Positions 23,560-58,923 of a stretch of 64,000 nucleotides of DNA are shown here, piece by piece; position 1 is the first letter of the stretch; every line of letters begins with the position of its first letter. The stretch covers positions 53,302,876 through 53,366,875 of the forward strand of contig NC_054712.1 of assembly GCF_016097555.1 (NCBI RefSeq). Reading direction: 5' to 3'. A program made the translations under genes and the position numbers. The notes beneath the pieces are model-generated. The model had not been told where the DNA came from and searched no databases. It worked only from the letters and a program-made list of their open reading frames with translations. Origin of the DNA: Gigantopelta aegis (Eukaryota > Mollusca > Gastropoda > Neomphalida > Peltospiridae).

Positions 23560-23768
23560 GTTAGTTTTGTTTAATGACTCCTCTAGAGCACACTGATTTT
23601 ATTAATAATTGGCTATTGGATGTCATACATTTGGTGATTGTGACATATAGTCTTAGAGAGGAACAGCTAAACATTTTCATTAATAAGGGATTGTTTATAT
23701 GCACCATCCCATAGATTGTACATAACACCTCAGAAGAGCACTCTACTGACTGAGCTAAATCCCTCTCT
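23560..23768 (-). repeat. SINE remnant, head D with tail 2
   Basis: Tail gttagttttgtttaatgact at the left; head gagctaaatccctctctg at the right. Much of the body is lost. It adjoins the 34-bp array. Confidence 0.6.
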
Positions 23769-23770
23769 GA

Positions 23771-24835
23771 CATATTTCAGTACCAAAATGCCTGCAACAC
23801 AAACCACATTTCAGTACCAAAATGCCTGCAACACAAACCACATTTCAGTACCAAAATGCCTGCAACACAAACCACATTTCAGTACCAAAATGCCTGCAAC
23901 ACAAACCACATTTCAGTACCAAAATGCCTGCAACACAAACCACATTTCAGTACCAAAATGCCTGCAACACAAACCATATTTCAGTACCAAAATGCCTGCA
24001 ACACAAACCACATTTCAGTACCAAAATGCCTGCAACACAAACCACATTTCAGTACCAAAATGCCTGCAACACAAACCATATTTCAGTACCAAAATGCCAG
24101 TACGGCAACACATAAATCACATTTCAGTAACAAAATGCCTGCAACACAAACCATATTTCAGTACCAAAATGCCTGCAACACAAACCATATTTCAGTACCA
24201 AAATGCCTGCAACACAAACCATATTTCAGTACCAAAATGCCAGTATGGCAACACATAAATCACATTTCAGTAACAAAATGCCTGCAACACAAACCATATT
24301 TCAGTACCAAAATGCCAGTACGGCAACACATAAATCACATTTCAGTACCAAAATGCCTGCAACACAAACCATATTTCAGTACCAAAATGCCAGTACGGCA
24401 ACACAAAAATCACACTTCAGTAACAAAATGCCTGCAACACAAACCATATTTCAGTACCAAAATGCCAGTACGGCAACACATAAATCACATTTCAGTAACA
24501 AAATGCCTGCAACACAAACCATATTTCAGTACCAAAATGCCAGTACGGCAACACATAAATCACATTTCAGTAACAAAATGCCTGCAACACAAACCATATT
24601 TCAGTACCAAAATGCCAGTACGGCAACACATAAATCACATTTCAGTAACAAAATGCCTGCAACACAAACCATATTTCAGTACCAAAATGCCATACGGCAA
24701 CACATAAATCACATTTCAATAACAAAATGCCTGCAACACAAACCATATTTCACATAAACCATATTTCAGTACCAAAATGCCAGTACAGCAACACATAAAT
24801 CACATTTCAATAACAAAATGCCAGCAATACAAATC
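23771..24835. repeat. 34-bp minisatellite with higher-order dimers
   Basis: The left third repeats a 34-bp unit (accaaaatgcctgcaacaca and on to catttcagt). To the right it alternates with a longer variant containing ccagtacggcaacacataaa, giving a dimer of about 75 bp repeated some six times. Neither variant contains a stop in any forward frame, so long open frames run through it without being genes. Confidence 0.95.
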
Positions 24836-27070: not shown

Positions 27071-27485
27071 AACAGGTTACTTTCAAATGCTGATGGGTCA
27101 ATGTTGACATTTGAGTTTATCAACTAACAGGTCACTTTCAGTTGCTGACAGGTCAGTATTTGACTTTATCAACTAACAGGTCACTTTCAGTTGCTGACAG
27201 GTCAGTATTTGAGTTTATCAACTAACAGGTCACTTTCAATTGCTGACAGGTCAGTATTTGAGTTTATCAACTAACAGGTCACTTTCAGTTGCTGACAGGT
27301 CAGTATTTGAGTTGATCAAGTAACATGTCACTTTCAGTTGCTGATGGGTCAGTATTTGAATTTATCAACTAACAGGTCACTTTCAGTTGCTGATGGGTCA
27401 GTGTTGACATTTGAGTTTATCAACTAACAGGTCACTTTCAGTTGCTGATGGGTCAGTGTTGACATTAGAGTTGATCAACAATTTC
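27070..27485. repeat. CYBA: 49-50 bp minisatellite in the CYBA 3' UTR
   Basis: About eight units of tttatcaactaacaggtcac plus tttcagttgctgacaggtca. It reaches to within about 15 bp of the CYBA stop codon (27499-27501). The sequence just 3' of the stop, tgacctgtcagaaattgttg on the minus strand, looks like a diverged first unit, so the array probably grew from the 3' UTR itself. Confidence 0.9.
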
Positions 27486-27498
27486 TGACAGGTCATCA

Positions 27499-27636
27499 TC
27501 AGACTCTGTTTTGTCTGCTGGTACTAGGGCTAGCTCTCCTCGGCGGAGGATGTCGGGGCGGGTGCATAACTGTTGGTCCTTCGTGGGATGGCTCATCCAA
27601 ACCAGCTGGAATCCATTCTTCACCTTTAATAGCAGC
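27499..27636 (-). CDS. CYBA: CYBA exon 6 with proline-rich tail
   Basis: Acceptor gtttcag. It codes AAIKGEEWIPAGLDEPSHEG, then PTVMHPPRHPPPRRASPSTS, RQNRV and TGA at 27499-27501. AAIKGEEWIP matches human AAVRGEQWTP. PPRHPPPRR corresponds to the human SH3-docking PPSNPPPRPP. The acidic/Ser-rich extension present in the vertebrate tail is missing. Confidence 0.93.
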   Translation of the reverse strand, partial: AAIKGEEWIPAGLDEPSHEGPTVMHPPRHPPPRRASPSTSRQNRV

Positions 27637-30600
27637 CTGAAACAAAACAAAAAATACAGTGAAACCTGTCATTTCATTTCAACTTATTTTTGCATTTATA
27701 TCCAATTAAGGTTCAAGCATGCTGTCCTGGGCACACACCTCAGCTATCTGGGCTGTCTGTCCAGGACAGTGGATTAGTTGTTTGTGAGAGAGAAGAGGGT
27801 GTAGTGGTCTTACACCTATCCATTGAGTCGTTAAAACTCACTCTGGGTGGGAGCCGGTACTGAGCTGCGAACCCTGTACCTACCAGCCTTATGTCCGATG
27901 GCTTAACCATAACACCACCGAGGCCAGTAAGAAACATGTCTGAACCGGACCCCAAAAACAGGACTCCTGTCAAAAAACGGCCAAGATTCATGGTCTTGAA
28001 TTTTCAAAATTCTAAACGATGACCCTCTAAACACGAGATTCTGTCTAAATCAGATAAATATTAGGTCCCCAGCATGATCTAATTCAGACACGTTTCATTG
28101 TATATTCTTTATGGCAGTCATTGCATACAATTATAAATATCTGGCATGTGCTTATAAAACATTTAGAGTCTAGATGCAAGATTCTAACAGTCTGCGACTT
28201 TAACGTTTATGACGTCATACAAACTGTATGGTGTCATTAGAGATTGAGTTTTATAAGCATGGGTCCTGAGGTGTAATTCATTCATGTTCTTTAGTATACA
28301 TCTCTTTGTGTAATCTTGCACCAATAGACAGAGGGGCGGGACGTAGCCCAATGGTAAAGCGCTCGCTTGATGTGCGGTCGGTGTGGGATCGATCCCCGTC
28401 GGTGGGCCCATTGGGCTATTTCTTGCACCAGCCAGTGCACCACGACTAGTATATCAAAGGCTGTGGTATGTGCTATCCTGTATGTGGGATGGTGCATATA
28501 AAAGATTCCTTGCTGCTAATCAAAAAGAGTAGCCCATGAAGTGGCACCAGCGCATTTCCTCTTTCAATATCTGTTTGGTCCTTAACCATATGTCTGATGC
28601 CATATAACTGTGTGCTTGAACCTTAATTGGATATAAGTATGGAAATAAGTTGAAATGAAAATGAATGAATGAGGGCCACTAAACTCCATTTAAACTTTCT
28701 GGTGCATAGCACAGGTTAGATCTCAATATCTGTGTGGTCATTAACCGTATGTCCAATGCTATATAACGGTAAATTAAATGTGTTGAGTGCGTCATTAAAT
28801 AAAACATTTTCTTCCTTTCTTCCAACAGACAGAAATATTCATACACTGATGCACACATTAATCAGTGAGTTTTAGAGTTAATTATCAGACTTGTGACAGA
28901 TAATCAGACCTACTGTCTTTACAACACTTGGCCAAGTCTAAGAATGAAGGACAATACAGTATCACATTTACACGAGTTACAAAATGCCAAATGGTATTAA
29001 CACGGTTTTGGTAACGACACCACTAGAGCACATTGATTATTAATCATTTGCTATTGGATGTAAAACATTTGGTAATGCTGACTTATAATCTGAGAGGAAA
29101 CCCGCTACATTTTTCCATTAGGTCAGGCCATGTCAGTAAGTTTAAAGTGCACATTCAGAACAAGCTGTTGTAATGCACGCCTGTCCTGGGCACAGATGCC
29201 GGCCTCAGGTTTTTTCCATTAGTATAATGGGATCTTGTATATGCACCATCCCACAGACAGGATAGCACATACCAAAGACAGGATAGCACATACCACTCAT
29301 GGTGCACTGGCTGGAACAAGAAATAGGCCAATTGGGCCACTGATGGGCAACAATGCCAGACTGACCTCACATCAAGCGAGCTCTTTACCACTGGGTTACA
29401 TCCCGCCCCCACGGTTTCAATACAGAACATACACTGTAAGACCACCACTCCCCATCTAAACATTCCGGTGCTAGGCATGGGTTACATCCCGCCCACACGG
29501 TTTCAATACAGAACATACACCGTAAGACCACCACTCCCCATCTAAACATTCCGGTGCTAGGCATGGGTTACATCTCGCCACCACGGTTTCAATACAGAAC
29601 ATACACCGTAAGACCACCACTCCCCATCTAAACATTCCGGTGCTAGGCATGGGTTACATCTCGCCACCACGGTTTCAATACAGAACATACACTGTAAGAC
29701 CATAACTCCCCATCTAAACATTCCGGTGCTAGGCATGGGTTACATCTCGCCACCACGGTTTCAATACAGAACATACACTGTAAGACCACCACTCCCCATC
29801 TAAACATTCCGGTGCTAGGCATGGGTTACATCTCGCCACCACGGTTTCAATACAGAACATACACTGTAAGACCACCACTCCCCATCTAAACATTCCGGTG
29901 CTAGGCATGGGTTACATCCCGCCCAAACAGTTTCAATACAGAACATACACTGTAAGACCACCACTCCCCATCTAAACATTCCTGTGCTAGGCATGGGTTA
30001 CATCTCGCCACCACGGTTTCAATACAGAACATACACTGTAAGACCACCACTCCCCATCTAAACATTCCTGTGCTAGGCATGGGTTACATCTCGCCACCAC
30101 GGTTTCAATACAGAACATACACTGTAAGACCACCACTCCCCATCTAAACATTCCGGTGCTAGGCATGGGTTACATCTCGCCACCACGGTTTCAATACAGA
30201 ACATACACTGTAAGACCACCACTCCCCATCTAAACATTCCGGTGCTAGGCATGGGTTACATCTCGCCACCACGGTTTCAATACAGAACATACACTGTAAG
30301 ACCACCACTCCCCATCTAAACATTCCGGTGCTAGGCATGGGTTACATCTCGCCACCACGGTTTCAATACAGAACATACACTGTAAGACCACCACTCCCCA
30401 TCTAAACATTCCGGTGCTAGGCATGGGTTACATCTCGCCACCACGGTTTCAATACAGAACATACACTGTAAGACCACCACTCCCCATCTAAACATTCCGG
30501 TGCTAGGCATGGGTTACATCCCGCCCCCACGGTTTCAATACAGAACATACACTGTAAGACCACCACTCCCCATCTAAACATTCCGGTGCTAGGCATGGGT

Positions 30601-33600
30601 TACATCCCGCCCCCACGGTTTCAATACAGAACATACACTGTAAGACCACCACTCCCCATCTAAACATTCCGGTGCTAGGCATGGGTTACATCTCGCCCCC
30701 ACGGTTTCAATACAGAACATACACCGTAAGACCACCACTCCCCATCTAAACATTCCAGTGCTAGGCATGGGTTACATCCCGCCCAAACAGTTTCAATACA
30801 GAACATACACTGTAAGACCACCACTCCCCATCTAAACATTCCGGTGCTAGGCATGGGTTACATCCCGCCCAAACAGTTTCAATACAGAACATACACTGTA
30901 AGACCACCACTCCCCATCTAAACATTCCGGTGCTAGGCATGGGTTACATCCCGCCCCCACGGTTTCAATACAGAACATACACCGTAAGACCACCACTCCC
31001 CATCTAAACATTCCAGTGCTAGGCATGGGTTACATCTCGCCACCATGGTTTCCATACAGAACATACACTGTAAGACCACCACTCCCCATCTAAACATTCC
31101 AGTGCTAGGCATGGGTTACATCCCGCCCAAACAGTTTCAATACAGAACATACACTGTAAGACCACCACTCCCCATCTAAACATTCCGGTGCTAGGCATGG
31201 GTTACATCTCGCCACCACGGTTTCAATACAGAACATACACTGTAAGACCACCACTCCCCATCTAAACATTCCGGTGCTAGGCATGGGTTACATCCCGCCC
31301 CCACGGTTTCAATACAGAACATACACCGTAAGACCACCACTCCCCATCTAAACATTCCAGTGCTAGGCATGGGTTACATCCCGCCCAAACAGTTTCAATA
31401 CAGAACATACACTGTAAGACTCCCCATCTAAACATTCCGGTGCTAGGCATGGGTTACATCCCGCCCAAACAGTTTCAATACAGAACATACACTGTAAGAC
31501 CACCACTCCCCATCTAAACATTCCGGTGCTAGGCATGGGTTACATCCCGCCCCCACGGTTTCAATACAGAACATACACCGTAAGACCACCACTCCCCATC
31601 TAAACATTCCGGTGCTAGGCATGGGTTACATCCCGCCCCCACGGTTTCAATACAGAACATACACCGTAAGACCACCACTCCCCATCTAAACATTCCAGTG
31701 CTAGGCATGGGTTACATCTCGCCACCACGGTTTCAATACAGAACATACACTGTAAGACCACACACTCCCCATCTAAACATTCCAGTGCTAGGCATGGGCT
31801 ACATCTAGCACAAAAATAAAGTGAACTTACCACAAAATATATAATTCCGGTAATGAGAAAACACACTCCTCCGATTAATGTAGGCAGAATAAAACAACAT
31901 GGGACTGTTAAACTGCAAAACAAACAAACAACCAAGATAATTATAGCATATTAAATGAGCTTCCGTTTCGTATCATGTTTATGTCCCGAGTGAAATGATT
32001 TTCAATTGTCACGAGCTTTAGCGAGTGACAATGAAAATTATTTTACGAGGGACATAAACATGATACTAAATGGTAGCAAGCGTAATATCCTATTTATTAC
32101 CCATAATTGATCTTAATTTATATCACTCAACTCGTTTTGTTGACATTCTTGAAAGGTTGTAGTGTGCCAACCGATGACGTCATTGTGAGACGTCCCACTT
32201 TGTGTTGTAGTATCACTTTGATATGTACCAAGATATTTTTAACCATATGGGTAATAATATATAGCATTTCCACTGCAAACTTCAATGATTACAGAATACA
32301 CCAATTTAGACGAAATGAATTCAGTTATATTTTCAATTTGTAATTACATTGTAAATTTGATTTATTTTATTACATATCTTATCTACTGGTAATATCAACA
32401 TACCGGTAACTAATTTGTCAGGTATTTTTATATTTCTGTGTTAATTTGATGTTCAGATAAGCCTCATTAGTGAATAAAAGAATTTCACCCAAATAACAAC
32501 AAAATGACAAACTGACAATTACTCACATTAAATACAAGACAAATCGGACAAAATAATTTCTTGTTACAATTCCTCCCAGCTTTACTATATGAGTAAATAT
32601 TTTCTGAAATCTGAAAGAAAAATAAAAGAAGTAAGTCAGACAACATTGTACACAAATTTCAAAATATCAAAATGGAAGACCGTAAATTTAATTTAAGAAT
32701 GTTAAAGGTTTTTTTTTTTTAAAGTACAAAAAACAATTCATTATTAACTTTATTAAAACCATATTACTAGCATTAGGCATTACTTATAATTTAATAATTA
32801 ATCATAATCAATTTAATGTATCAACATATGAATCATGGCCAGTGCTAGAAACCTAAATCATTCTATTGAAATTGTTGTAAGTGTATTTGTTTTGGACATA
32901 TATCAATGTTTAAACTTTAAGTGTTTTTTTTGTTCCCTTTCTTATTGTTTTTCTTATAAATATGAATCTTCTGGGGGGGTTTTGTGGAGTTTTTTGTGCC
33001 AAATCTCTTTTTATATCAGGGTCCAATGTTGACAGGTTTGCATTACCTTCTTTCAATAGTTTTTCCTGACTGTCGTTTTCCTCTTGGAAATTCAATAATA
33101 AACACAAACAATGCAGCCACTCTGCTATGAGTCAAGGACATAAACTAAATGTACTATCAATTATTTAATATTAATTTAAAATAAAACATTATTACCAATG
33201 CAAATGAAAACTAGTATTCAAATGCAGATGTACAAATATCTATTATGTGACTGATCGACATAATAGGTTGAATAACCATATGCTGTTAAAATAACCAACA
33301 GTTAAATCAACTTTACTTTATTAATTTGATTACCTACATCCATTTAAATGCTACAGAGTAAATAAGATAAAACAAAACTGACACCAAGGCAATATTGTAA
33401 ATAAAGTTAAAGTTTGTTTTGTTTAATGACATCACTAGAGCACACTGATTTTATCAATCATTGGCTATTAGATGTCAAACAGTTGGTAATTTTGACATAT
33501 AGTCTCAGAGAGGAAACCCACTACATTTTGTTTATTAGTAGCAAGGGATTTCTTTTAAATATAAGACATGAGAGCACATATCATGGCCTTTGATATACCT

Positions 33601-36600
33601 GGTTAGAATGAGAAATAGCCCAATAGATCCACCAACGGGGATCGATCCTAAACATCAAGATAGCACTTTACCACTATGCTACCACCTGTCCTTTGTGAAT
33701 ACAGGTGACTGGTATTTATTTTATAATGATAGGGTTTCTGTCAGAGGGTTAACCTCTTGACAAAATTAATTAATCTTGTCATTACTGTACGATTTTCTTA
33801 CACCTAACCTTAAACGTAACCCATTTTCTTTCTGGGGGAGGCCCTCCATAACCCCTGTTGACTGTGGTTGCTTTCAATTCCATAGCACCATACCCAAATA
33901 TTTCTTTCTGGCAGAAACACTGGTGGACCATATGATAACTCTTGTTTTGCGCTTCCCACAGGCAGGATAGCACAAACCATGGCCTTTGTTGAACCAGTTA
34001 TGGATCACTGGTTGGTGCAAGTGGTTTACCCATAGCCTTGCAGAGCATTCACTCAGGGTTTGGAGTCAGTATTTGGATTAAAAATCCCATGCCTCAACTG
34101 GGAAATCAATTGATAAAGTAACGATATATAAAACAAGCAAGCAATACATGTCCCCTACAGAGCCCGACAATTTTTCGTATCTACTAAACTCTGAAAAGTG
34201 GGTAAATCACCATGAAACTTCAATTTGATCTGTAAAGCTATATACAAATGATAAAGCTATATACAAAATTTCATCTGGATATATCCAGGCATTGCAAAAA
34301 TCTGAAAAAACTAATTTTCACATCGCCTATGTTCAAGGGCCACAACTCCGTCAAAAATGGGTAAATCGTCATAAAAATAAAACTTAATCTGTAATAGTAC
34401 ATGATGAAACTATATACAAACTTTCAAACCTATAGCCCCCTCCGGTCGGACCGGAAGGGGACTAATAAAACAGCAAAACACACATTGATTAAATATTTCC
34501 ATTGAAGCAAATGCAAATCAAGACGTGAACTGCGCCAAAACAGACAGGGACCGAAACAGCTGGGGTTGAACATGCACCAGGTCCGAAACCGTATATACCC
34601 TCAACATTAATTTTTGGCAGAAAGCCTGTAATTATATATAAAAACGTTCTTCAGGATACATTCCATAAACACCAAACTGCCAGCGGTCGAACATGGCAGC
34701 CACAGCAACTATTCCTCCAAGAAGAGTAGCTACAAAAAAAAAAAGGACAACGTATTGGTATTTCTGTGTGTTTTAAATCAATCTGCATTTTATTCTTGTG
34801 CTTATTTCTAAAACTGGTAATTTATCATATACTGTATTACCTATTTACTTATTATTGTTTGATGTGAACTTCTACCAAATAAATTATGTAATGGAGCCAC
34901 TTTCTCTAACACATTAAATCTGGGGTTTATTTGTTGTCCAATAATAACAATTCAAAAGCTGTTTGATCAAAACCATTGAACTGATTTGAAATTGATTATT
35001 GTATAGGGTCAAAATGAGGGGTTTTCTTTAATTACATTCATTATATTGAACACAATTTTGTTCTAACAAATTTTGCCTGGAAAAGGAAATTTCTACTTTA
35101 TAGCATTTTGTATTCAAAAGATAATCCTCAACCCTATAGGCTACCAGTATTAGAATAAATTGATCTTCCCCATGTCTATATTGTTCAAGTGATACCCATA
35201 ATAAATGTATTGAGGAAGCAAGTAATTTGCCTCAATGCTTGGCCAACTTTTTACAAGTGGTCAACTTGCCTCAATCCCACTGGTTACAGCTCAATAGTCC
35301 GAAGCTTCAATGATCTGAAGGTTCAATGGTCTGAAGGTTCAACCCTAACTCTAACCCTAGGTTCAGTAGTACGAAGATTTATAGACCTAACCCCGGACTA
35401 TTGAACCTTCAGACCATTGAACCTTTGGACTATAGAGCAGTCCCCATCCCACTTCACTTTCAAGTAACATAGTACAGCCATTCCTTCCTAATATACAAAT
35501 GTTAAAGGCACTGTCCTGAGTTAGCAACCATTGCAAGATGGTTTTGACAACTAAAATTACTAAATACATTTTCTTTTTTAGAATATATGAGTAGCAGTTA
35601 TTTGTCATTTTATGTTTTAATATATATATTTTTGAACAAACAAAATTATTGGAAGGAAAAGTCTGGTTTGTGCTTCTTCAAACAGTAGGACAACAACAAA
35701 CACTTTGGTTTATACAGACAATGACATTCTAAACAAGAAAATATACTGAATATGTAACTTTAGTTTAAGAGGCTCCTTTTGGAAGAAATATCTTACAAAG
35801 CCTGCAAACTAATGACCGTCTCTTTAACGTTATGTATGGTGTAAGATTTTCTGAGGAAATAAACCTTCCCTATGCCAGATATTTAGATTAAAGTCCGAAC
35901 CAAATTGTTAACAACTAACTTTAATTACTGTTAGATTTTCCACAAATTTTGTCCAGACACAAATTGTGAAAACCCCCATTACAGTGACAAAAATTCCACA
36001 TACGAGACTCTAACAATGTCATAGATTTTAATTTCGCTGAGAATGCATATGGCAAAAGGTTACCAGTCATATCGTCCCCGGGTCGTATTATCCCAGTGTG
36101 AAAACGTCCCCGGTTCCTTCCAAAATGTCCCCGGTCACACATTACACTGACTACACAACGCATACACAATAATTATTTGAGAGAAGTGGAATCAAATTCA
36201 ATGTCATTTCAACCCTATTCAATCCCTGAATGCCATTAGGGACAGAAACTCTAGCTGTCAGTTTGTGCCCAAGACAGGTGTGTTTGAACACATCTGGTGA
36301 TGTAAGCACTTTAATAATTTGTCCAATCCAGTCCTATTTTAATATTTTGCGGATTTTTGCCATCGTAATATGCCTATTCAGTCAAACTGACTATCTAAAA
36401 TTGTTTAGAAAGCACACAGAGCCATAATGATGTTATGGTCTGTCCTTCGTATGCGAAGATGAAATGTACTGTAACATTTGAACTTTAATTTAGTCAAATT
36501 AACATCCTAGAAAGCACATAGGGCATTACTTAAAGGCATACTGTCATGGATTTAAGGACCTTATTTCTCTAAAAATGGATAACTAAAAATTACATTAATT

Positions 36601-39600
36601 GTTGGAAACCAAATCTAGCTACTGAATCACCGTAACTGAACCACGATGGAGTGAAATCCATGTCAACCCTCTCGGCAATTTTAGTTTTCAAATTATGGAC
36701 CACTGCCATAATTATTTTTTACAAAATATCACTAATAAATATAGTTTGGTGGTTATGAAGATGGTTGAATAAAGTACCGTACATTTAGGGACAAATCAAA
36801 TTATTGTTGTTTAGGTAATACTTTGTTAGACCATTAAATAGGTCAGTGGTCTGTGACAATATGCCTTTAATATACAGAGGATAATAAACGAGATACCAGT
36901 TATTATCAAATTTATGTCCCGAGTGAAATAATTTTCACTTGTCACAAGATTTAGTGAGTGACAAGTAAAAATTACTTCACTCGGGACATAAATTTGATAA
37001 TAACTGGTACCAAGTTTGTTATTCTATTTATTACCCCAGCTTTTTTTTTTTTTTAAAGCCTTTATTTTCGATATCACCTACATCGGCTACACATCCATGA
37101 ATATAGAAATGATGTAAACTACTTTACTGTTCTGGGTATTGCTTCAACTTTGTATTTTATTCACAGTTTACAGATAATTTGTAAAACCCAAAGTTCTATA
37201 TATTCAGTAAAAAAAAAATCTATAATGAATTGCATTAAACTACCATTTTATTACAACTTTAACACTGAATCCAGAAAGACGTAAACGCAAATGCTTTAAA
37301 CTACGTGACGTCAATGTGTGTACTTTGCCAAATCGTGATGACGTCATATTTAGTACCGACAAGGTGATTGGTTTGTTGACGTCAAATCATCCAATAGTAG
37401 TGTACGTTAAACCAATGCGTGAAATTATTATTTTTATTTTCCCTGCTGGGGTAATAAATAATGATATGACATGGGGACATTATGGTCCTTCGTATGCGGG
37501 GACGATTTGACGTGGGGACGATTTGACACAGGGACGTTATGACTGGTCACTGGGCAAAATACATGCAGTTTTCTGCCGTCTGCCATTTTGCTTATTTATG
37601 GAATACTCTTCAAGAGGGGTGGATCGATATGACGTAATCTAACAACATCATGACATGCGCTAAGGTATGACACACTCATCATGATGTCAGATTAATTATG
37701 CTGCATACTTAGGAGGCTTGAAGAGTATTCCACAAAAAAACAAAATGGCAGACGGTGAAAAATTGCATGTATTTTGCCCTATGCAATCTCAGTTAAGTCA
37801 ATATCAGTGAATTTGTTACAGTCTCGTATGTGGAATCTGTCATTGCAATGTTTTTTTCACGATTTATGTTTGAACAAAAAGTGGAGAAAATTAAACAGTA
37901 ATTAAAAGTAGAAGAGTAATTTATCACAGTTGTTAAGGTCGATGACAGTCACTTTTCGCACCCTTGTTTTAACTTCGTACACAATAAATGTAGCATATCT
38001 TATCATAATCACTTGAAATCCGTAAAAGGTACAATTTTTTAATCACAGAATTTTCTTCAAACACATTCAGGTGCATTAGTAATGTTCAAACAAAACATTT
38101 TCAATAGCAATTTTGCACTGGAATTTATCCAACATTCTTAAAACGGCAACATAATTTACCAAGTTTATAGTTATTGTAAGGAGATGCAAAGTGACATTAT
38201 TGGAATACTGACGTCATTCAAATTCATAATTAGCTATATGATTACAATGCTTCGCCACATTAAAATAAAAGCTGGTCTACTAACCTTTACTCCTGTCAAA
38301 TTTCTATAACAAGCAGACAACGCTGTTTACAGGTCGGTATTTTTTTATTTTTCATAATTCTGGATAGTAGGACTTTCCTTCGGCACTGTCATGTAAAAAG
38401 AACATTATAAATACTATCATAAATAGAGTTAAAGTTAATGATAGTTCATCAAGATTAACCTCGAGTGCAAGCATATTGTGAGGTTAATCCACCCAAGGCA
38501 TTAAGCCTGTCGCAGATCTGAACTGTTCCGAGGAATTTTGCTCGGAACGGAATTGCAGTCAAAATAATGACTACCATCACATTTTCCCACCCTAATCGTG
38601 TATTGTGATCTATTTCAAGCTCATGGAGACCAAGAAATACTTACTTTGAAATGATCTTCACTTTGAATTAAAGGAAAAAATTTATTGTGTGTTTTTTTTT
38701 TTACCAAGCGGATTCTAGCAGCCAATTATGCTGGCAGACAATTTCAGCAGACACGCATGGCAACGTTCTAAACACCGGATTCATATGCCTTTCGATTATC
38801 TGTATTTCCCACACTTTTAAACACACTGTTATGCTAATTACTAGTATTCACTATAAGTTAAGAATTTCAGAGTTTTAAAGAGTATCTTCATATAAAAACC
38901 CCAACCAAGACTCATTTTTATAGTCTTATATTGTTACTAATATCTGTATAATTTATACAACATAACCGTTTTATTAAGCACTTTTTTAACATCTGAAGTA
39001 TCACTTTAAAATCATTCTGTACTACGGTAAGATCGGGGTGTTCAACTAGTTTCATAAAGACCACAACACGATTGACCGATAAATATGTTTATTTTTTTTA
39101 ATAAATATTAATTTTATCCATCTGCAGGCCCTTTTACAATGTGTGACAGGTTGTGGTCTTATGCAAGATTACTATTTGGACAAAATGTCTGTATATATAC
39201 ATCTCTTATTGTGCCATGAAATAATTAATTCCATGATTTTATCGATTCCGCTTGTTTCGGCCATTAAACTTGTAAACATCGGAGGTCCAATAAATGTCAA
39301 AATGTTAAAAAACGTACCGTAGATGTTTACCGTGATGAACTAAAGTCCGAACCAAAATGTTAACAATTACGAAAAATTGCTCTCCTACCTTTATTTTTCG
39401 TTAGATTTTACCCACATTTTGTTCAGATAGAAATCTTGAAACAACCATTACAATGACACAGATTCCACATACTAGATGATAACCATGTCACCTATATCAA
39501 CTTTGCTGAGATTGCATAGGACAAAAAGCATGTAATTTTGTGCCGGCTGCCATGATGACTTTTTATGGAATAGTCTCCAAGAGTGGTGAAAGGATATGAC

Positions 39601-40726
39601 TTAATCTAACAATGTCATAACAATTTTATTATTATTAAAAAAAAAATAATGATACTACTAGAGATCATTGTTTTATATTAATTATGTCACATACTTTGGA
39701 GGCTTTCACCCCTCTTGAAGAGTATTCCATAAAAAAAACAAAATGGCAGATGGCAGAAAACTGCATGTATTTTGCCCTATGCTATCTCAGCTAAGTCGAT
39801 ACTGGCAACATCGTTAGTCTCATATGTGGAATCGGTGTCACTGCAATGGGTTTTTCACAACTTGTGTCTGGACAAAATCTGGAGGAAATATAATGGTAAT
39901 TCAACGTAGAAGAGTAATTTATTGTAGTTGTTAACAAGTTGGTTTGGACTTTTATATTTAAGGTCGACGACAGTCACTTTTCGCGCCCTTGTTTTGGGTT
40001 CGTACAAAATAAATATAGCATATCTTACCGCAATTTCACTTGAAATCCATATTTCGTAAAAGATACAATTTTTTAATCACAAGATTTTCTTCAAACACAT
40101 TCATATGCATTAGTAATGTTCAAACAAAACATTTTCAATAGCAAGTTTGCATTGGAATTTTTCCAGCATTCTTAAAACAGAAACGTCATGTACCCAGTGT
40201 ATGGTTATTGTAAGGCGATTCAAAGTGACATCATTCAAATTCAAAATTAGCCATATTATTACAATGCATCACCACATTAAAGATTAAAATAAAAACTGGT
40301 CTGCTAACCTTGACCCCTGTCAAATTTCTATAACAAGCGGACAGGTTGGTATTTTGTTATTTTTCATAATTCTGGACAAAACATTAATTTTAAGTTTCAA
40401 CAGATGAAAGAAATAAAAAGTACCTTTTGTCAAATATATCATATAAAAAAATTACCGTTGGATTTGTTTTATTTACTGTGTACGAAGCCAAAACAAGGGT
40501 GCGAAAAGTGACTGTCGTCGACCTTAGAACAGTGACTGTCGTCGACCATAACAATTTGGTTTGAACTTTTGGCTACCTAATTCCAACGCTAATTGAAGCA
40601 AGTGGCAATTTTTCGGCATCTCTTAGTTAACAAAATCAATGTCTTATATGATGTATATTATAACAAACCTGCAGCACTAACTAATGCTTGTTCATTTGCC
40701 CACATTGACCATTCAATCTTGCCCAT
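27499..40726 (-). CDS. CYBA: CYBA, p22phox subunit of NADPH oxidase, six exons, complete
   Basis: Exons: 40669-40726, 34660-34729, 33047-33121, 32527-32610, 31831-31912, 27499-27636. Together they give 507 bp and 168 residues. p22phox is the membrane partner of NOX enzymes; it stabilises the catalytic subunit and offers a proline-rich docking site for p47phox/NOXO1-type SH3 domains. The protein starts MGKIEWSMWANEQAL (human MGQIEWAMWANEQAL), has EFPRGKRQSGKTIERR, VKLGGIVTRNYFVRFVLYL and a PPRHPPPRR docking motif at 149-157. As I recall the human protein, the alignment is gap-free to Trp131, so Gly24, Glu53, Arg90, Ala124 and Ala125, which are mutated in human chronic granulomatous disease, keep their numbers. 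Four hydrophobic stretches are visible (about 14-32, 38-52, 91-108, 110-126). The tail is shorter than in human (168 versus 195). All five junctions are phase-compatible; no frame break is seen. Confidence 0.93.
27672..27930 (-). repeat. tRNA-derived SINE, head C, in CYBA intron 5
   Basis: Left end caacttatttttgcatttat, then ggttcaagcatgctgtcctg; right end caccaccgaggccagt. A close relative of 11434-11712 in full order. Confidence 0.75.
28330..28812 (+). repeat. Chimeric SINE: head A body interrupted by a head C tail piece
   Basis: 28335-28608 is a good head A element (gggcgggacgtagcccaatg, gggatcgatccccgt). At catataactg it switches to tgtgcttgaaccttaattgg and aagttgaaatgaaaatgaat, the head C family tail. 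Tail 1 sequence returns at 28716-28812 (ctcaatatctgtgtggtcat to cattaaataaaacatt). Confidence 0.7.
29008..29408 (-). repeat. SINE, head A with tail 2, interrupted; seed of the 86-bp array
   Basis: Tail at the left (gtaacgacaccactagagca), head at the right (ctctttaccactgggttaca to cccgcc). An unrelated 90-bp piece (29125-29213, with cagaacaagctgttgtaatg and gcctgtcctgggcacagatg) sits between two copies of ttttccattag. That piece recurs at 60828-60900. Confidence 0.75.
29393..31809. repeat. 86-bp tandem array, about 28 units, in CYBA intron 5
   Basis: Unit: ggtttcaatacagaacatac, actgtaagaccaccactccc, catctaaacattccggtgct, aggcatgggttacatc, then a variable junction. Three junction classes alternate: tcgccaccacgg, ccgcccccacgg and ccgcccaaacag. 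The segment gggttacatcccgcc is the reversed 5' end of the SINE head, and the array starts exactly where the SINE at 29008-29408 ends. One unit (about 31390-31435) lacks caccac and neighbours. The right edge lies only some 20 bp from CYBA exon 5. Confidence 0.97.
31831..31912 (-). CDS. CYBA: CYBA exon 5
   Basis: Acceptor ttttgcag; donor gtaagt. It codes LTVPCCFILPTLIGGVCFLI and TGIIYFV, covering the third and fourth membrane helices. The adjacent intron 5 (27637-31830) is mostly an 86-bp tandem array plus SINEs. Confidence 0.92.
31960..32262. repeat. Hairpin MITE, ttattaccc family, copy 2
   Basis: Palindrome arms tcgtatcatgtttatgtccc and gggacataaacatgatacta around cacgagctttagcgagtg. It then runs from tattacccat (32095) to atgggtaata (32252). 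CYBA intron 4. Confidence 0.6.
32527..32610 (-). CDS. CYBA: CYBA exon 4
   Basis: Two tandem ttcag sites occur; the upstream one (cag at 32611-32613) gives the correct phase and the residues RFQKIFTHIVKLGG, matching human RWGQKYMTAVVKLFG. The donor is gtgagt. It carries TRNYFVR with the conserved Arg90. Confidence 0.93.
33047..33121 (-). CDS. CYBA: CYBA exon 3
   Basis: Acceptor atagcag; donor gtaatg. It codes VAALFVFIIEFPRGKRQSGK followed by TIER. This is the second helix and the basic cytosolic loop; EFPRGKR is a p22phox signature (human EYPRGKR). Confidence 0.93.
33410..33690 (-). repeat. SINE, head A with tail 2, diverged
   Basis: Left end aaagtttgttttgtttaatg, right end accactatgctaccacctgt. 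B box gggatcgatccta. CYBA intron 2. Confidence 0.75.
33948..34110 (-). repeat. SINE head B fragment
   Basis: gcgcttcccacaggcaggat to cctcaactgggaaa; both the tail and the outer part of the head are missing. CYBA intron 2. Confidence 0.7.
34157..34462. repeat. Dispersed repeat D, copy in CYBA intron 2
   Basis: Ends ctccggtcggaccggaaggg followed by gactaataaa, with cctatgttcaagggccacaa inside. Same family as 25540-26160, reversed. Confidence 0.55.
34660..34729 (-). CDS. CYBA: CYBA exon 2
   Basis: Acceptor tgtag after a T-rich tract; donor gtatcc. It codes TLLGGIVAVAAMFDRWQFGV and YG, first membrane helix and loop. Phase 2 at the end joins exon 3 to make the Ile of YGIVAA. It is separated from exon 1 by a 5.9-kb intron full of nested elements. 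Confidence 0.92.
35291..35435. repeat. Small foldback repeat
   Basis: caatggtctgaaggttcaa (35324-35342) and ttgaaccttcagaccattg (35401-35419) are perfect 19-bp inverted arms; smaller echoes (agtccgaagcttcaatgatc) lie outside. A short ccctaactctaaccctagg is in the loop. CYBA intron 1. Confidence 0.7.
36057..37551. repeat. Nested non-autonomous element, accagtcat termini
   Basis: Ends accagtcatatcgtcccc (36062) and atgactggt (37539-37547) are inverted; inner parts repeat cgtcccc/ggggacg several times. [t/g]ggcaaaa flanks both sides (36050-36057 and about 37551-37558), consistent with an 8-bp target duplication as in hAT elements. It carries the hairpin MITE 36888-37458 within it. No transposase is visible. 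Confidence 0.6.
36888..37458. repeat. Hairpin MITE, ttattaccccagc family, copy 3
   Basis: A palindrome at 36890-37025 (ccagttattatcaaatttat inverted) and then ttattaccccagc (37028) to gctggggtaataa (37443-37455). Best-preserved copy; very close to 6603-7205 in order and content. Confidence 0.65.
37934..38365. repeat. TAAGGTCGA MITE, copy truncated on the right
   Basis: Starts taaggtcgatgacagtcac, then cgcacccttgttttaacttc, and follows 39959-40526 as far as tttttcataattctgga. The right terminus is missing. Confidence 0.75.
38390..39340. other. CYBA intron 1, nothing recognised
   Basis: AT-rich single-copy-looking sequence. A chance hairpin ctgttccgag/ctcggaacgg is at 38522-38550. No gene or known repeat family was seen. 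Confidence 0.4.
39347..39953. repeat. Foldback element, copy 2, complete
   Basis: Outer ends taaagtccgaaccaaaatgt (39348) and aagttggtttggactttta (39933-39951). The arms are roughly 250-290 bp each and pair almost throughout (ttccacatactagatg with catatgtggaat). The centre has a short A/T run. Noncoding. The TAAGGTCGA MITE starts 6 bp beyond its right end. Confidence 0.75.
39959..40526. repeat. TAAGGTCGA MITE, full copy with perfect 26-bp termini
   Basis: 568 bp. taaggtcgacgacagtcac plus ttttcgc at the left is matched exactly, inverted, by gcgaaaa plus gtgactgtcgtcgacctta at 40501-40526; similarity extends about 20 bp further inward. No coding capacity. Other copies: 48102-48685, 37934-38365 (partial), 18590-18654 (end only). 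A second terminus (agtgactgtcgtcgaccat) lies at 40531-40549. Confidence 0.9.
40669..40726 (-). CDS. CYBA: CYBA exon 1 (start codon)
   Basis: The ATG is at 40724-40726. The exon codes MGKIEWSMWANEQALVSAA and ends in phase 1 before gtttgt. The start is fixed by the near-identity to the family N-terminus. The 5' UTR continues to the right with no clear TATA element. Confidence 0.93.
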
Positions 40727-41803: not shown

Positions 41804-44527
41804 TCAAGTTGGTGTTGTAGTAGAGGGTCTGGTAAGTTCATTTTGCCTATGGTTGAACATTTCATAACAGAATTGTCCAACAGTTGGAGTTACTTGTTCT
41901 GGGCCGTCAAGAAGGAAAACACATTTTTCCAGTTCAGACAGAAATGTGAACTCAGAACATATTTGACCGACTTTATAGTATAGTATTTTTCTTAAATGCA
42001 TATTTATTGGACACCGAGTCAAAAAATGAATCTCATCTTCTGGTTCTTTTTGGCACAGCCGGCATATACGGTCATTTCTATGGATATTCCTATAACGTCC
42101 TACCTCGATTTCCAGTCTGTGAGCACATAAACGTAGTTTTGTGAGAGCTTGTCTAAAATTGGTATTTTTTATATATTTCAAGTAATTTGCCATTTCATAT
42201 TTGTTTTTAATATGTTTAAATATTTGCAGCTTTTCAGAGTTCTGTAACTTGATTTTAAAGTGTTCGTAATATCTGTCATCAAGGATTTTGTTAGCGTAGC
42301 TAGAGTTTGATTTTGGGTGAATTTTAGCGTTAGTTAATAGACTTATGTCAATGTTGTTATTATCAAGCATATCTTGTAAATAGGCATGCCAGCCTATGTT
42401 GTGTTGTGTTTGTAGCTCTTTGCTACAGGATACTGCATCATATAATATAGATCTTGATTCTTCTACATTTTCTAGGTACATAAAATATTTACAAATATTT
42501 GTATGTATGCTATTTATAAGTGGGTAGCGCCCCAGTTCACTCCTGCAGGCAATGTTAACACTGTTTCGTGGGACTTGAAGATTAATTTTACAGAATTTTA
42601 TATGTAATTTTTCGAAGGGTTCAGACTCTAATATGTCAAAGAATTTGTATTGGTTGTGTTTCTTTAGTTTGCCATGCAGTTCCGTGCCCCATACTTCCGA
42701 GTTATAGAGTAGAATAGGTTTAATTAGTGTATCAAACAGTTGATTATATATATGTGGGGGTGGATTGACACCCGAGAAAGCTTGGTGTAATCTGAAGAGT
42801 GCTTTTGATCCCTTATTACCGAGTACAGTTTTAGTTTCAGTAAAGTTTCCAGTTGAGTTTCTAGTGCATCCCAGATACGTGTATGCATTTGTTTGAAAAA
42901 TTGTATTGTTATCTAGGTAGAGTTTACTAGTTGTGGGGCTTTTCCCTTTTTGTATGATCATAAAATTTGATTTTGAATGGTTTATATTTAGGTGCCATAG
43001 CTTACAGAAGTCATCAAGACTATTAAGACATTCCTGAAGGCCTTGTGGGGTTTCAGACAGGAGGAGGAGGTCATCTGCCCATAACAAATGGGATAGTTTT
43101 TCTTATTGTAGTGTAACAGGTGCACATATAGTTGATTTAAAATTTAGGTCTTCTATGAAAATGTTAAACATGGCAGAGCTGAGTGTATCACCTTGTTTTA
43201 CCCCTATATTTGAGGAAAATGTATCTGTAATGTTATTTGCGAACCTAATTGCGACTTCAATTTTGTCGTAGATTGATTTAACAATGTTGTAGAATTTCCC
43301 GCCAATCCCTAGACGTAAAATTTTAAGAAGAAGTCCTTCTCTCCACACAGTATCATATGCTTTTTGGAAATCAATAAAACATATGTAGAGTCGTTTGTGT
43401 AATTTGGTTACATATTTGTGTATTAGGGTTTTAAGAATAAATATGTTATCGGCTGTTCTTCTACCTTTCCTAAAGCCAGACTGGTTATCTGATAATAGTT
43501 TTTTCTTTTCTAAATGATTGACTAGGCGGTTATTCAGTATCATGGAGAAAAGTTTTCCTAGACAGCTTGTTATAGTTATTCCTCGGTAATTTGTCGGGTC
43601 CATTTTGCATCCTTTTTTGTGAATTGGAGTTATATATCCTTTAGTCCAATAGTTTGGAAATATGCCAGTTTTGTACACCGCATTAAACAATTTAACAAGA
43701 GAAGAAAGTAATACTGATTTTCCGAATTTTATCATTTCATTAGATATTAGATCAAGCCCGCAAGATTTGTTATTTTTTAGGCATGTAATAGCTATTAAGA
43801 CTTCTTGGGTTGTAATATGGCCATCAAGGTCAGGGAATATTGTTTGTTCATTTTCCCGTTGACGGAGTTCTTCTTTGAGTAATTGTGATTTTTCATCCGT
43901 GTGAGAATTGGTGTCATTGTTTAAGGATTGGAAATGATTTGTCATACGTTTTACAAGTTCGTTAGGGAGATCGATGTCGTCTTTGTTTTTGTTAATAATG
44001 TTGTTAATAATAGACCAGTATTCTTTTGGGTTATTATTTTGTATGTCCTCCATTTTGTTATATAATTTTTCTTTCAGGTCCCTCTCTACCCGTTTGTTGG
44101 CTTTATGTATTTTTTTCTTTGTACTCATTAATCTTGTTCGCAGGTTAGCATTAAATGGATCTGCTTTTAGTTGCCTAGCTAGGTCCCTGAATTGTGTTTG
44201 GAGTCTAGAAGTTGTGATTTTATGTTTTTTCTTTTGGGTCCTTTTAGAATGATTAATCTTTTTTGTTGGCGACATTCTAGACGCTGCAGTTAGCACGATA
44301 TCATTTAATGAGCTAACAGCTTGGACAGATATTTCAGTATCCATAAAGTTTTGTATTTTGCTAAGCGAGTCAGGTGATAGAAGTTCTTGTTGATACATTG
44401 TACTGTTGTCATCATTGATTTTATGTTTGTGTTGCATTGGATGCAGTATCGTCTCTTCTGTTAGTATTGGCATTTGTTTGCATTTCATAATCACAGATAG
44501 TGGGCAGTGGATGGAATGAGGAGACAT
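41804..44527 (-). pseudogene. LINE reverse transcriptase and C-terminal domain
   Basis: Visible RT blocks: NYRGITITSCLGKLFSMIL, SGFRKGRRTADNIFILKTLI, LYICFIDFQKAYDTVWREGL, IGVKQGDTLSSAMFNIFIED and LLWADDLLLLSETPQG (the catalytic A-D-D box is WADD). The C-terminus has CRLCQKEPEDEIHFLTRCP, a zinc-knuckle-like motif. The frame runs from 44527 to 41804 with a single in-frame stop at 43103-43105 just before the WADD box, so this copy was lost recently relative to most repeats here. Confidence 0.85.
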
Positions 44528-44544
44528 AGCCTTAACATTTAAAC

Positions 44545-44960
44545 TTATAATATCGCAAAGTCCCTTTTCTTCACAGATAACATAGTCAACAGGCTTGTTC
44601 CTTGTGCATTAAAACATGTTAATTTACCTAAATAGTCACCAGGACTTCTCCCATTCAGAATGCGGAGGCTTGTTGTTGTGCATAAGTTTATGAGATGTCT
44701 GCCATGTGAGTTAATAGACGTGTCTTGTGAGTTTCGTTTTTTGGATATATAATCTGGAGTGTATCCTTCAGGAAGGGGTAGGAAGTCATCTGTATCATGC
44801 GGTATATAGTCTTTAAGAACTGTGTTTGCATCAGCAGTGCGAGCATTAATATCTCCCATTATTAGTACAGTGCCCGCCATGCTGTAGGTTGCTATTTCAG
44901 CTTCTAGGGTGGCAAATTGATCTTGAAAGTAGGGGGACTCTGCAGGAGGTATATACAAGG
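44545..44960 (-). pseudogene. LINE endonuclease domain fragment
   Basis: Codes YIPPAESPYFQDQFATLEAE, VLIMGDINARTADANTV and LRILNGRSPGDYLGKLTCFN. GDINAR is the endonuclease motif holding a catalytic Asp. A one-base frame change near 44598 separates it from the downstream reverse transcriptase. The N-terminal half of the endonuclease is missing because of 5' truncation. Confidence 0.8.
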
Positions 44961-45129
44961 AGCAATCGTATTACGATCGTATTTATGTAATGGTTAATAA
45001 TTTAAAGAAACTTTTAGTATGTTATTGTAAACATCGTATGTCTGCTACAGCATGCACTTTTTCAGTTTTCTCAACTGTTTCTTTAGAGAGCATGAATTAA
45101 TTATGCACTTATTTGTTATTGGTGTTACC

Positions 45130-45853: not shown

Positions 45854-46744
45854 TGACGGACACCATACATGCAATACAGTTTTATCATTCTCTTGGACTA
45901 CCACACAGAGAAATTGGGGAATATCTAGCCACAGTAAACAGAATAGTTATTAGTGAAAGAACACTTAAACGGATTTTGAAATCCGTTGGGCTTTTTAGAC
46001 GTAAATATCATTCAATCTGATATATTGGATGTTGCATTGTTCTTAGAACTGGAGATGGAACTATCTGGTCAGTTACATGGGTATAAATTTATGCATCTTA
46101 AATGCATCCAGTCAGGGTACGTTGCGAGTCAAGAAACGGTCAGGCTTCTCTTACATATTGTCGATGCGAATGGTGTTTTCTTTCGACGTAAAGGCCGATT
46201 GAAGAGAAGAACCTACTGTAATCCAGGTCCTGATTTTCTTTGGCATATTGATTCTTATGATAAACTGAAACCGTATGGTATTTGCATTAATGGCTGCATA
46301 GATAGATTTTCACGACACATCATATAGTTGGAAGCATATACGACTAACAGTGATCCTGCTGTTATTGGAAGCTACTTTATGACATCTGTCCACTCAAGAA
46401 TGGGTTGTCCTAAAAGAATACGAGCTGACATGGGCACAGAAAACGGTAATGTAAGAAGCATGCAGACTTTCCTACGCTATGACCATGACGAATATGCGAG
46501 AAGGTCGTTTATATGTGGATCTATTAACCATAATCAACGGATAGATGCTTGGTGGTCTTTTCTACGGAGACACTTAGTGCAGTTTTGGATGAATCTGTTT
46601 CAAGCTATGGAGGAAAACGACACTTTTGCTGGTGATTTCCTGGACAGGAACTTGATACAGTTTTGTTTCATGCAGATTATACAGGTTTGCTTTATGTTAT
46701 TTTATAAAAGCGACTTCGTCTTCCATGGTAGGCCTACATTGTAA
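45854..46744 (+). pseudogene. Integrase-core (rve-like) gene, fossil
   Basis: The left part (45854-46015) reads as a short helix-turn-helix region: FYHSLGLPHREIGEYL and ISERTLKRILKSVGLF. Then comes an integrase-type catalytic region: FLWHIDSYDKLKPYGICING, CIDRFSRHII and KRIRADMGTENGNVRSMQTF, then DAWWSFLRRHLVQFWMNLFQ. I know this arrangement from multicopy integrase-core genes in molluscs, cnidarians and fish; whether they belong to a mobile element or are domesticated is unclear. This copy is broken in several places and ends near 46744. No terminal repeats were found around it. A CGTACGTACG minisatellite lies directly 5' of it. Confidence 0.65.
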
Positions 46745-52562: not shown

Positions 52563-54333
52563 ATGAGTATGCAGATCTGATAAATTACCTGATTTTTAGC
52601 CAAGCCATTTTTATACGCTGAAGGACTTCCAGAATTATAAAAGTTTGGATGCATATGACCGTTTTGTGTGTGGTTGGGTGAGGGATGTTGGTGTTTACAT
52701 CCATGATTCAGTCCATGTGATACGTGCAAGGGTGATGTATTCACAACGGCTTAGTGACACATCGCTTTATTCGTGGATTATTTTCGATAAAGCTGGTAAA
52801 GTTCTTTGTGCCCATTGTAATTGTAAAACAGGACTTGGCGAATCATTTTCTCATGTGGCATCCACGTTATTATATTGAAGCCAGTGTGAGGTTAAGACAA
52901 AACAGCACTGTGACACAGACACCAGCCTACTGGATGTTGCCTGCAACACGAACTTCTGTTGACTGTTCACCACTTAAAAACATTAACTTCACTTCGTCAA
53001 GAACTTTAAAAAAAACCCATCGGCTGGATGAGCAGGTAGATCAGCCTCCACCGAAAAAAGCAACGGAATCAACAGCTCATCAAAAAAAGGAAATTCATAG
53101 GGCTACATCAGCAAAGTTGGATGTATTTTTCTATGCAATTAAGGATGAAAAACCAGCATGCTTGTCTGTAAGAAGAGCGTACAATGAATGCTATATTCCA
53201 AAGGGACTCGAACGCAAATATCCTGTTATCCTAACTCAGATTTATTCAGATGACTCTCAGTCTGCATCCAAGTCTGAAATAATAACTCACTGCAAGTTAC
53301 TGTTTAAGGACATTACTGTCACAGAGGAAGACGTGATTAATGTTGAACTGGCCACCAGAGAACAGGCCAGTTCGAAACTGGCATAGATTTCAGACCGGTC
53401 GGGCCACAGCTTGTCGAATGAAGGCATTTTTTGTAGTACCTCATGTGAGAAGCCATCTATGAGCTTGTTGGGATCCATTTGGTATCCAGTTGAGGCAAAC
53501 TTCTCTACTGCAACACCTAGATTGGGATGCCAACACGATTTGACAGCAAGACCGGAACAGGCGAGAACAGATCACCATAACGTTCATAACCAGATGGCCT
53601 AGTGGAATGCGATTGCTGTGGTCTTGGATGTATTGAAATATTATGTCCATACTGTATGAAAGATAACGGCATAACAGATGGAAAAAATATCCTTCTTTAA
53701 AGCGGTTGACGGCAGTCTTCAGCTGAAGAGAAACCATCCATGCATTCACTGTTGCATGTTTGTAATTTTGATTACTGTGACTTTATAGTAATTATCTTTT
53801 TATCAAGAGGATTGAACCCTGCTCCGAGCTTTGGGAAACCATTGCAGAGAAGTCAACAGGTTTTTTTTTTACCTACGTCACATGCCAGAACATGTGGGTC
53901 AGCCTTTTAGCAGGAAAGCTACTACCATGACAGATACCACTAACCAGGTCGACAAAAGTAAACAGCTGGTGAGCAAGAAAAAAGTATCACTTGACACAAA
54001 TTTTAATGTGGAAAATGAAAAATCCTCAGAGTACTTTGCTCAAAGACAGTGTACCAGAACTGTCCACTGTCGACTGATCCATCAACTTCTGGTGCTACAC
54101 TTGACAAATCAGATGAAGATCCAGCACTATATTGTATTTGCAATGATTCTGCTAATGATTCACCAATGATCGCATGCGATTCAGCATACTGTCCCCACAA
54201 GCCATTTGAATGGTTTCATTTTTCTTGTATGGAATTAAAGAATGCACCCACTGGAAAGTGGTATTGTATTGACTATAGGAAGGGAGTGGCAGTGAAGAAA
54301 GTGAAATGTGCTAATAAAACTAAAAGAAAATAA
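52560..54333 (+). pseudogene. SWIM zinc finger - YqaJ nuclease - PHD finger gene, broken copy
   Basis: Three parts in order. About 52620-52880: YKSLDAYDRFVCGWVRDVGV and KVLCAHCNCKTGLGESFSHV, a SWIM-type CxC...CxH finger. About 53290-53600: VELATREQASSKL followed by remnants of a YqaJ-type recombinase/exonuclease region (SCEKPSMSLLGSIWYPVEAN; LGCQHD). About 54090-54333: a PHD finger, DPALYCICNDSANDSPMIAC, then CPHKPFEWFHFSCMELKNAP and WYCIDYRK, then a lysine-rich end. I associate SWIM-YqaJ-PHD proteins with large expanded families in molluscs and cnidarians, possibly mobile. This copy is interrupted by several breaks and is probably not functional. Confidence 0.65.
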
Positions 54334-56942: not shown

Positions 56943-58923
56943 TTACATACAAGATGGGACATTCAAAATGTTATTAAATTCGCATCTCAATTCAGGGTAT
57001 GATTGGTACGTTGATGGCAGTTCAAGACAAGGTCCACACGTGTTAGTAACAGGACGTTTTGCTAAACCATCCAGTGTCGAGAAACTATCTTTTCAATGCA
57101 TATTACATCTGTTCCCGTAAGAAACCGCAGACGTTTTCGCAAAGCAGTGAGTTCTTGTTGGGACTTAATATACTGTTGAAAGAACTTCAAGCTTTCATTT
57201 TCAGCTTGTGTTGCTGGGTTTGCCCGAATCACCTTCAACACTTTTGGAACAGTCGGTGTTTTTTGTTCATACATTGTTTCCATGGCTCGCATATTTGGGA
57301 TTTGTTCCACAAGCTTAACTCTTGATACTTCTGCTATTTTGTCCAAGGCATATTTTGGTTTTTGAATCAATTCTTTATGAACGATCTGGAGGAAAGTGCC
57401 TTGCATCATATTTTGACTTGGGACATGCTTACATCCTAATCTATCCAATACGCCAATTAGCTCCTCGGTGTCATCATTTGAAAGAGACCCATCAATGGCT
57501 GATGTGACCAAATCTCGGTCTGGTTTGTTAAGGTATAGCAAAAATGATTCAATCAGTGTTCCTGGTGAAATCGTGTGCTCGCCAATTACAACTGCATTTG
57601 TAAATGATGGCGCTAGTTGAAGCGGGAAAATATTATGATCGAAGAACCCCTTGAGTAGAATTCTTCCTACTGCTCGCCATTCATCAACCTGCCAGTGTGC
57701 ATTTAATGCTGGTACTCTAGCATCATCTCCTTCGACACTTTGTGAGAAACATTCCACCCAGAAAAAGGAATATGCATCTCTAGAAACACCTGATTGGTCA
57801 GCATCTTCTTCGTTCACAAACGTAAATTGTATTTGTGTCTCTATAACGGCAGGGTTTTTAAAATGAGAAAAGATATCCTCCTTGATTTTCACACTGTGTA
57901 CACGTAAAGATATTGGTGATTCCACATCAGCAGGAGGCGGGGTTGGTCCTCTTGGTGAAGGTGTCTGTGGTGATCCAATGCCTGAAAACATTTCAGCATC
58001 ATCCACCAAGGTAGGATCCTCTGAAGCAATCAAGTTTTGGGGGCTTGAGGTAGTTTGCTCTGCCGGTAGTACAATTATTTGCGAAGGTTCAAAGTCTAAA
58101 ATACTGTAACAACTGCCAGCGGTGTTTGCGTTTTCCAGTGTTAGCACTGCTAATGACAATTCATTACTTGATTCTATTTGCCACAATGTGGGATTTTGGT
58201 CATATGCTACCTTTTTAGATGAGGACTCATCTAAATTACTTGTTACGACGTCCATATCTGCAAAAGATCTCCCTTGTATTCCTGAATCTGATTATTACGA
58301 CGTCCATATCTGCAAAAGACCTCCCTTGTATTCCTGAATCTGATTCTGTTTCAGGCGTTTTAAGTATTGAGGAATGATCATCATTGGAACTCGTTCCTTC
58401 TTGAAAAGAATGTTTTGGAGTAGAATCTCAAAATACCTATTTTGATAGTCTCATACAATGTCGAAATAATAACATCATCAGGAAATTCTGTTTGCGCAGT
58501 CAAGTAAATCGACATTCAATGAAGCAATTGGTAGACCTTTCTTTGATTTCCCTTGGGAGAAGAATAAATCTTTTGCCATGACCAAAATATCTTCTTTTTT
58601 CCGATTCTTGAGATTTCCACTTTTTGGCTACTCCCTCCATTCACGCTCCGAACTTGCTTGCCATTATGTATCCATCCTAATTCAAGTTTCCAAGTAAGTT
58701 TCTTTGCATTTGTATTTCCTCTTAAATTTTCACTTTTTGTTCGTTTTCCATTATTAAAATCAATTGATCTACTGTCTCCATGACCAAAGTTCATTCCCTT
58801 CCTTAAACGATCGAACAAAACATCTTTCTTTGATAGTGACTGTGTTTGGCAGAATTCTCTTAGATGAATTCGGTCACCAAATGCGGGTACGTACTCTTCC
58901 AACTCAGTGTCATTCATCAGCAT
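56943..58923 (-). pseudogene. HECT-domain (G2E3-like) E3 ligase-type gene, frame-broken
   Basis: Begins MLMNDTELEEYVPAFGDRIH and LREFCQ (SAM-like end), then a Lys-rich linker with WKLELGWIHNGKQVRSVNGG. After a disrupted stretch (58255-58516) a 397-codon frame holds the HECT N-lobe: FTFVNEEDADQSGVSRDAYS, RVPALNAHWQVDEWRAVGRI, LIESFLLYLNKPDRDLVTSA, KYALDKIAEVSRVKLVEQIP, FLTGTDVICIEKI. A one-base shift near 57085 separates it from a C-lobe remnant (to 56943) reading LAKRPVTNTCGPCLELPSTY, which keeps the catalytic-type Cys after NT. A 52-bp tandem duplication at 58243-58346 adds another frame break. Similar multicopy HECT genes occur in molluscs and fish. The upstream SAM exon was not found. Confidence 0.75.

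Follow-up and report, generated by a model that had tools for sequence, protein, structure and literature searches.

A complete six-exon p22phox (CYBA) gene of ordinary invertebrate type in the gastropod Gigantopelta aegis

The window analysed here, a stretch of 64,000 nucleotides from Gigantopelta aegis (C14:53302876-53366875 in an assembly of 1,149,253,464 bases and 5216 contigs), carries on its minus strand, from 40726 to 27499, a complete gene for p22phox (CYBA). It is almost certainly an intact orthologue and is the sole copy found, and its product is predicted to pair with a NOX2-type catalytic subunit and to dock an organiser with its tail. Judged from its sequence it is an ordinary invertebrate orthologue of an already known kind, and no tested feature departs from the family.

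Six exons join into one frame of 507 bp from ATG to TGA, which gives a product of 168 amino acids followed by the TGA stop. Exon 1 (58 bp, 40669..40726, donor gtttgtta) holds the start codon and residues 1-19, MGKIEWSMWANEQALVSAA, and exon 2 (70 bp, 34660..34729, acceptor ttttgtag, donor gtatcctg) carries Gly24. Glu53 and a polybasic PRGKR lie in exon 3 (75 bp, 33047..33121, acceptor catagcag, donor gtaatgca), Arg90 in exon 4 (84 bp, 32527..32610, acceptor tttctttcag, donor gtgagtaa) and the final hydrophobic stretch in exon 5 (82 bp, 31831..31912, acceptor ttttgcag, donor gtaagttc), while exon 6 (138 bp, 27499..27636, acceptor tttgtttcag) contains Ala124, Ala125, Trp131, the cytosolic tail and the TGA stop. 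All six are on the minus strand. The five introns, of 5939, 1538, 436, 614 and 4194 bp, all start with GT and end with AG, the coding sequence is interrupted after bases 58, 128, 203, 287 and 369, and the phases after exons 1-5 are 1, 2, 2, 2 and 0. The first-pass annotation of the window had proposed six exons of just these lengths, and they were recovered at the positions it gave, with GT-AG introns and 168 residues when joined. More than half of intron 5 consists of an 86-bp tandem repeat (29392..31805, 28 copies, 96% matches), a minisatellite that stops 25 bp short of exon 5, and a 49-bp tandem repeat (27109-27457, 7 copies, 92%) starts about 40 bp past the stop codon, presumably within the 3' untranslated region.

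The joined protein matches the Pfam family Cytochrom_B558a (PF05038) over residues 2-159 with 190.3 bits (E 3.2e-56, cut-off 25), and among the PDB sequences there were three distinct matches at E<=0.001, all of them p22phox and the best of them human (E 8.7e-51). E values of 3.2e-56 and 8.7e-51 exclude chance, and together with the intact frame they bear out the earlier claim of a complete CYBA orthologue. On the window itself, a tblastn search with residues 1-162 of human p22phox matched four of the six exons singly, with 26.9 to 37.7 bits (4.5e-5 for exon 1 and 3.7e-6 for exon 3), and gave no match for exons 5 and 6. In a simple control of 20 shuffled windows, in which dinucleotide blocks were permuted inside 300-bp blocks, the top match reached 23.5 bits and 17 of the 20 were without any match at E<=1.

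Over residues 1-131 the protein is identical to human p22phox at 72 positions, and the first gap in the alignment comes only beyond residue 136, so that the gap-free match to Trp131 claimed for it stands. Gly24, Glu53, Arg90, Ala124 and Ala125, also claimed as kept, are all the same as in the human protein, as is Trp131. We take Glu53, Arg90, Ala124 and Ala125 to be sites that are changed in human chronic granulomatous disease (CGD). For Gly24 there is a published CGD variant of CYBA, Gly24Arg (PMC8818666). Hydrophobic stretches with a Kyte-Doolittle mean above 1.6 are found near residues 13-34, 37-55 and 88-127. The tail keeps the proline-rich PPxxPPPR core: the predicted PPRHPPPRR site is there at residues 149-157 (codons at 27535..27561, minus strand), opposite human PPSNPPPRP (P151-P159), and PPPR is followed by R-A here and by P-P in human. 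The protein is also shorter than the human one, 168 against 195 amino acids, with the difference within the tail, as had been said of it.

The gene structure adds a further line of evidence. Human junctions can be read from published splice-site variants: c.58+4_58+7del puts one after base 58 (PMC11219406), c.59-2A>G and c.204-2A>G mark 58/59 and 203/204, and c.129-23_129-5del marks 128/129 (PMC8818666), c.287+1G>T puts one after base 287 (PMC12343970) and c.370-1G>A marks 369/370 (PMC13177377). All five intron positions of the gene studied here are equal to these human ones, and they are therefore independent support for the exon borders as well as for the orthology.

A gene can look intact in its frame and nevertheless be silenced or decaying. 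Against such a reading stand 507 coding bases without a stop, frameshift or broken splice site, the strong conservation of residues towards human p22phox, and the lack of any other copy found in the assembly as a possible replacement; we regard decay as exceedingly improbable. When the joined protein was searched against the whole 1.149-Gb assembly, seven matches at E<=10 were obtained, namely the six exons and one stretch on C8 with 33% identity and E 0.63. An internal stop appears in two of the exon matches, since these overrun the exon borders; the exons themselves are free of stops. The first-pass annotation had named a second intact CYBA elsewhere as something that would tell against it; the assembly yielded no such copy, in a search that scored the best candidates only and that a diverged copy could escape. 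A search of the assembly with the family profile gave nothing at E<=0.001, the known gene included, probably because the exons are short, and was discarded as uninformative.

p22phox is a small membrane protein that partners NADPH oxidases, the enzymes that make superoxide, and its role and that of its proline-rich region (PRR) are described in PMC2121648. Members of the family form stabilising heterodimers with NOX1-4. By analogy, the protein encoded here would pair with and stabilise a NOX2-type catalytic subunit as a heterodimer. A PX-SH3 organiser would bind its proline-rich cytosolic tail through tandem SH3 domains, and once docked would bring an activator to the oxidase, which would be expressed and produce superoxide. 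The organiser in this animal could be p47phox-like or Tks/SH3PXD2-like.

The earlier suggestion to look for a NOX2-like gene in the same genome led to a positive answer, and such a gene is present, by sequence similarity, on C4. There, on the minus strand at C4:43468724-43489200, lie 10 of the 31 matches that human NOX2 gave in the assembly at E<=1, in order and with 43-72% identity, and they cover human residues 47-113, 198-228, 268-385 and 397-570 in pieces. Three of the ten hold stops, which may be run-through into introns. The top match of the human NOX2 query was on a short contig (C1204), with 34% identity. The Pfam domain NAD_binding_6 gave eight matches in the assembly at E<=0.01, two of which were searched against the PDB; the exon on C4 is nearest to human NOX2 (1.2e-16, against 0.04 for NOX5 and 0.07 for DUOX1), and a match on C5 is nearest to NOX5 (7e-32). 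Others among the eight matches may be DUOX-like.

For the organiser the picture is more suggestive than firm. The tandem SH3 part of human p47phox gave 38 matches at E<=1 in the assembly, mostly unclassified, and six of them (E 7e-6 to 0.32) lie together on the minus strand at C10:56982463-57001427. From the part of the query that each of them covers, these six can be read as five SH3 domains. The p47phox PX domain was matched three times in the assembly, and two of these matches are on the same strand close by, at C10:57018459-57018557 and C10:57023084-57023182, each weak alone (E 0.37 and 0.46), and their frames, FPLEAGVIEPAQRTLPILPG and AQRISQCDVVLDFFTVEPDDLDPPTNSK, are ordered as in a p47-family PX. 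Proteins that combine a PX domain with three or more SH3 domains have the layout of SH3PXD2 (Tks). In primitive animals, according to Kawahara and Lambeth, the p47phox-like genes resemble SH3PXD2 more closely than they do the p47phox of vertebrates (PMC2121648), and an association of TKS5 with p22phox is mentioned in a review (PMC7663256). The C10 region is thus likely to be a PX and multi-SH3 gene of the p47phox/SH3PXD2 (Tks) family. With the Tks4-Tks5 and p47phox proteins it has in common the p47-like PX pieces and the SH3 matches, which is the type of docking partner that would be expected, and it differs from p47phox or NOXO1 in having more SH3 domains. A clear p47phox or NOXO1 was not identified with the p47phox SH3 and PX queries, nor among 26 PX matches in the assembly, of which 24 loci were translated and one was classified by search. 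That one, a PX exon on the short contig C990, was rejected as p47phox, as it came closer to a designed CISK PX (2.6e-7) and to KIF16B (3.1e-5) than to p47phox (1.2e-4). For an activator of the p67phox/NOXA1 type, the p67phox query gave one weak match (E 0.0015), which lies at C10:47112365-47112580 and is 26% identical to residues 1-72, and no unambiguous p67phox was identified with it in the assembly.

Other candidates were set aside because of where they lie, as loci on short contigs seldom have repeats in common with the window. Shared repeats turned up at a single one of the 22 short-contig loci and at 30 of the 35 loci on contigs of chromosome size, taken as those with a contig number up to 20. 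This count covers 57 of 69 loci and leaves out those within the window (L001-L006) and those overlapping others (L031, L038, L045, L050, L053 and L061). The short contigs at issue, for instance C629 (L042, L064-L066), C1992 (L043) and C1204 (L008), may belong to another organism in the sample, or may be unusually poor in repeats. The p47-like SH3 exons on C629 (L042 and L064) and on C1992 have no repeats in common with the window and were not credited to the animal. The strongest of the three matches to the p47phox PX domain, on the short contig C1136 (53% over 30 residues, E 0.019), was set aside as well.

The first-pass annotation had concluded that the animal has a p22phox-dependent NOX system with SH3-type organiser regulation, and had asked for p47phox/NOXO1-like genes. 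The catalytic half of this is borne out by the NOX2-like gene; for the organiser half the searches yielded the likely C10 gene of the p47phox/SH3PXD2 family and no clear p47phox or NOXO1. We find it plausible that the animal has a NOX that depends on p22phox and uses an SH3 organiser, since the NOX2-like gene and the likely PX-multi-SH3 gene share one assembly.

The protein could instead mainly serve a NOX4-like enzyme that is constitutively active, with a proline-rich tail that does not serve SH3 docking. Vertebrate NOX4 needs p22phox, yet disruption of the PRR leaves its production of ROS unaffected (PMC5372347), a Nox4-like gene has been reported in a limpet (PMC2121648), and it would fit that no clear p47phox was identified in the searches made here. 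The NOX2-like gene in the assembly and the kept PPxxPPPR core argue in the other direction, as does the report that the PRR is highly conserved across all p22phox orthologues (PMC2121648), and we consider this explanation quite improbable. A variant of the docking model is that no organiser other than a multi-SH3 scaffold of Tks/SH3PXD2 type docks on the p22phox tail here. We would call such a sole Tks-type organiser rather unlikely; if it were true, one protein would still serve both the assembly of the oxidase and podosome-type cytoskeletal scaffolding, much as has been proposed for the ancestor of the p47phox family.

Several other features were seen in the window. Upstream of exon 1 and on the same strand, at 41804-44970, there is a broken LINE-type element, with an endonuclease-like frame (weak, below the cut-off) and a reverse transcriptase across two frames, and a remnant of a mobile element lies at 45980-46744, where a pair of frames with a stop between them matches an integrase core domain (Pfam rva_4). 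The tandem array of 34/75/150 bp at 23671-24757 gives overlapping open frames of 195, 317, 114 and 208 amino acids on the plus strand, which is an effect of the repeat and not a gene. A PHD-finger frame lies at 54019-54330, and 57062-58291 holds an open frame of 409 amino acids without a Pfam match at E<=0.01. In the p22phox protein itself, residues 16-128 give a weak Pfam match to Cg6151-P (E 2.6e-5, 24.9 bits, under the cut-off of 29.2), presumably the calcium channel Flower family. This match, below the cut-off as it is, hints that p22phox and Flower may be distantly related; in the collection of papers searched, none mentions the two together.

Molluscan p22phox is not new, and the first-pass annotation overstated how surprising the gene is, as p22phox and other Phox-related genes have been reported from molluscs (PMC2121648, PMC5372347, PMC4892480). 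In 2007 Kawahara and Lambeth described from the limpet Lottia genes like those for p22phox, p47phox and p67phox, together with a Nox4-like gene and an ancestral Nox2 (PMC2121648). A survey from 2017 counted 20 p22-phox genes in 18 of 95 genomes, included Lottia in its alignment figure and found the PRR undetectable in two annelids only (PMC5372347). From the transcriptome of the Sydney rock oyster a p22phox of 172 amino acids was described in 2016, and p47phox was not found there (PMC4892480). Because the limpet gene and the oyster protein were already published, both the gene and its short tail were to be expected. Going by its reported length, the oyster protein is nearly equal to the one described here (172 against 168 amino acids), and the p22phox gene is common to G. 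aegis and Lottia gigantea by report rather than by alignment (PMC2121648, PMC5372347). With human p22phox (PDB 7u8g, 8gz3, 8kei) the protein shares the ungapped identity up to Trp131, the five intron positions and the PPxxPPPR core.

What the analysis documents is an intact p22phox with the intron positions of the human gene, beside a NOX2-like gene and a likely PX-SH3 gene elsewhere in the same assembly. It leaves the view of the NOX family unchanged, and is useful for annotation and for the question of which organiser invertebrates use.
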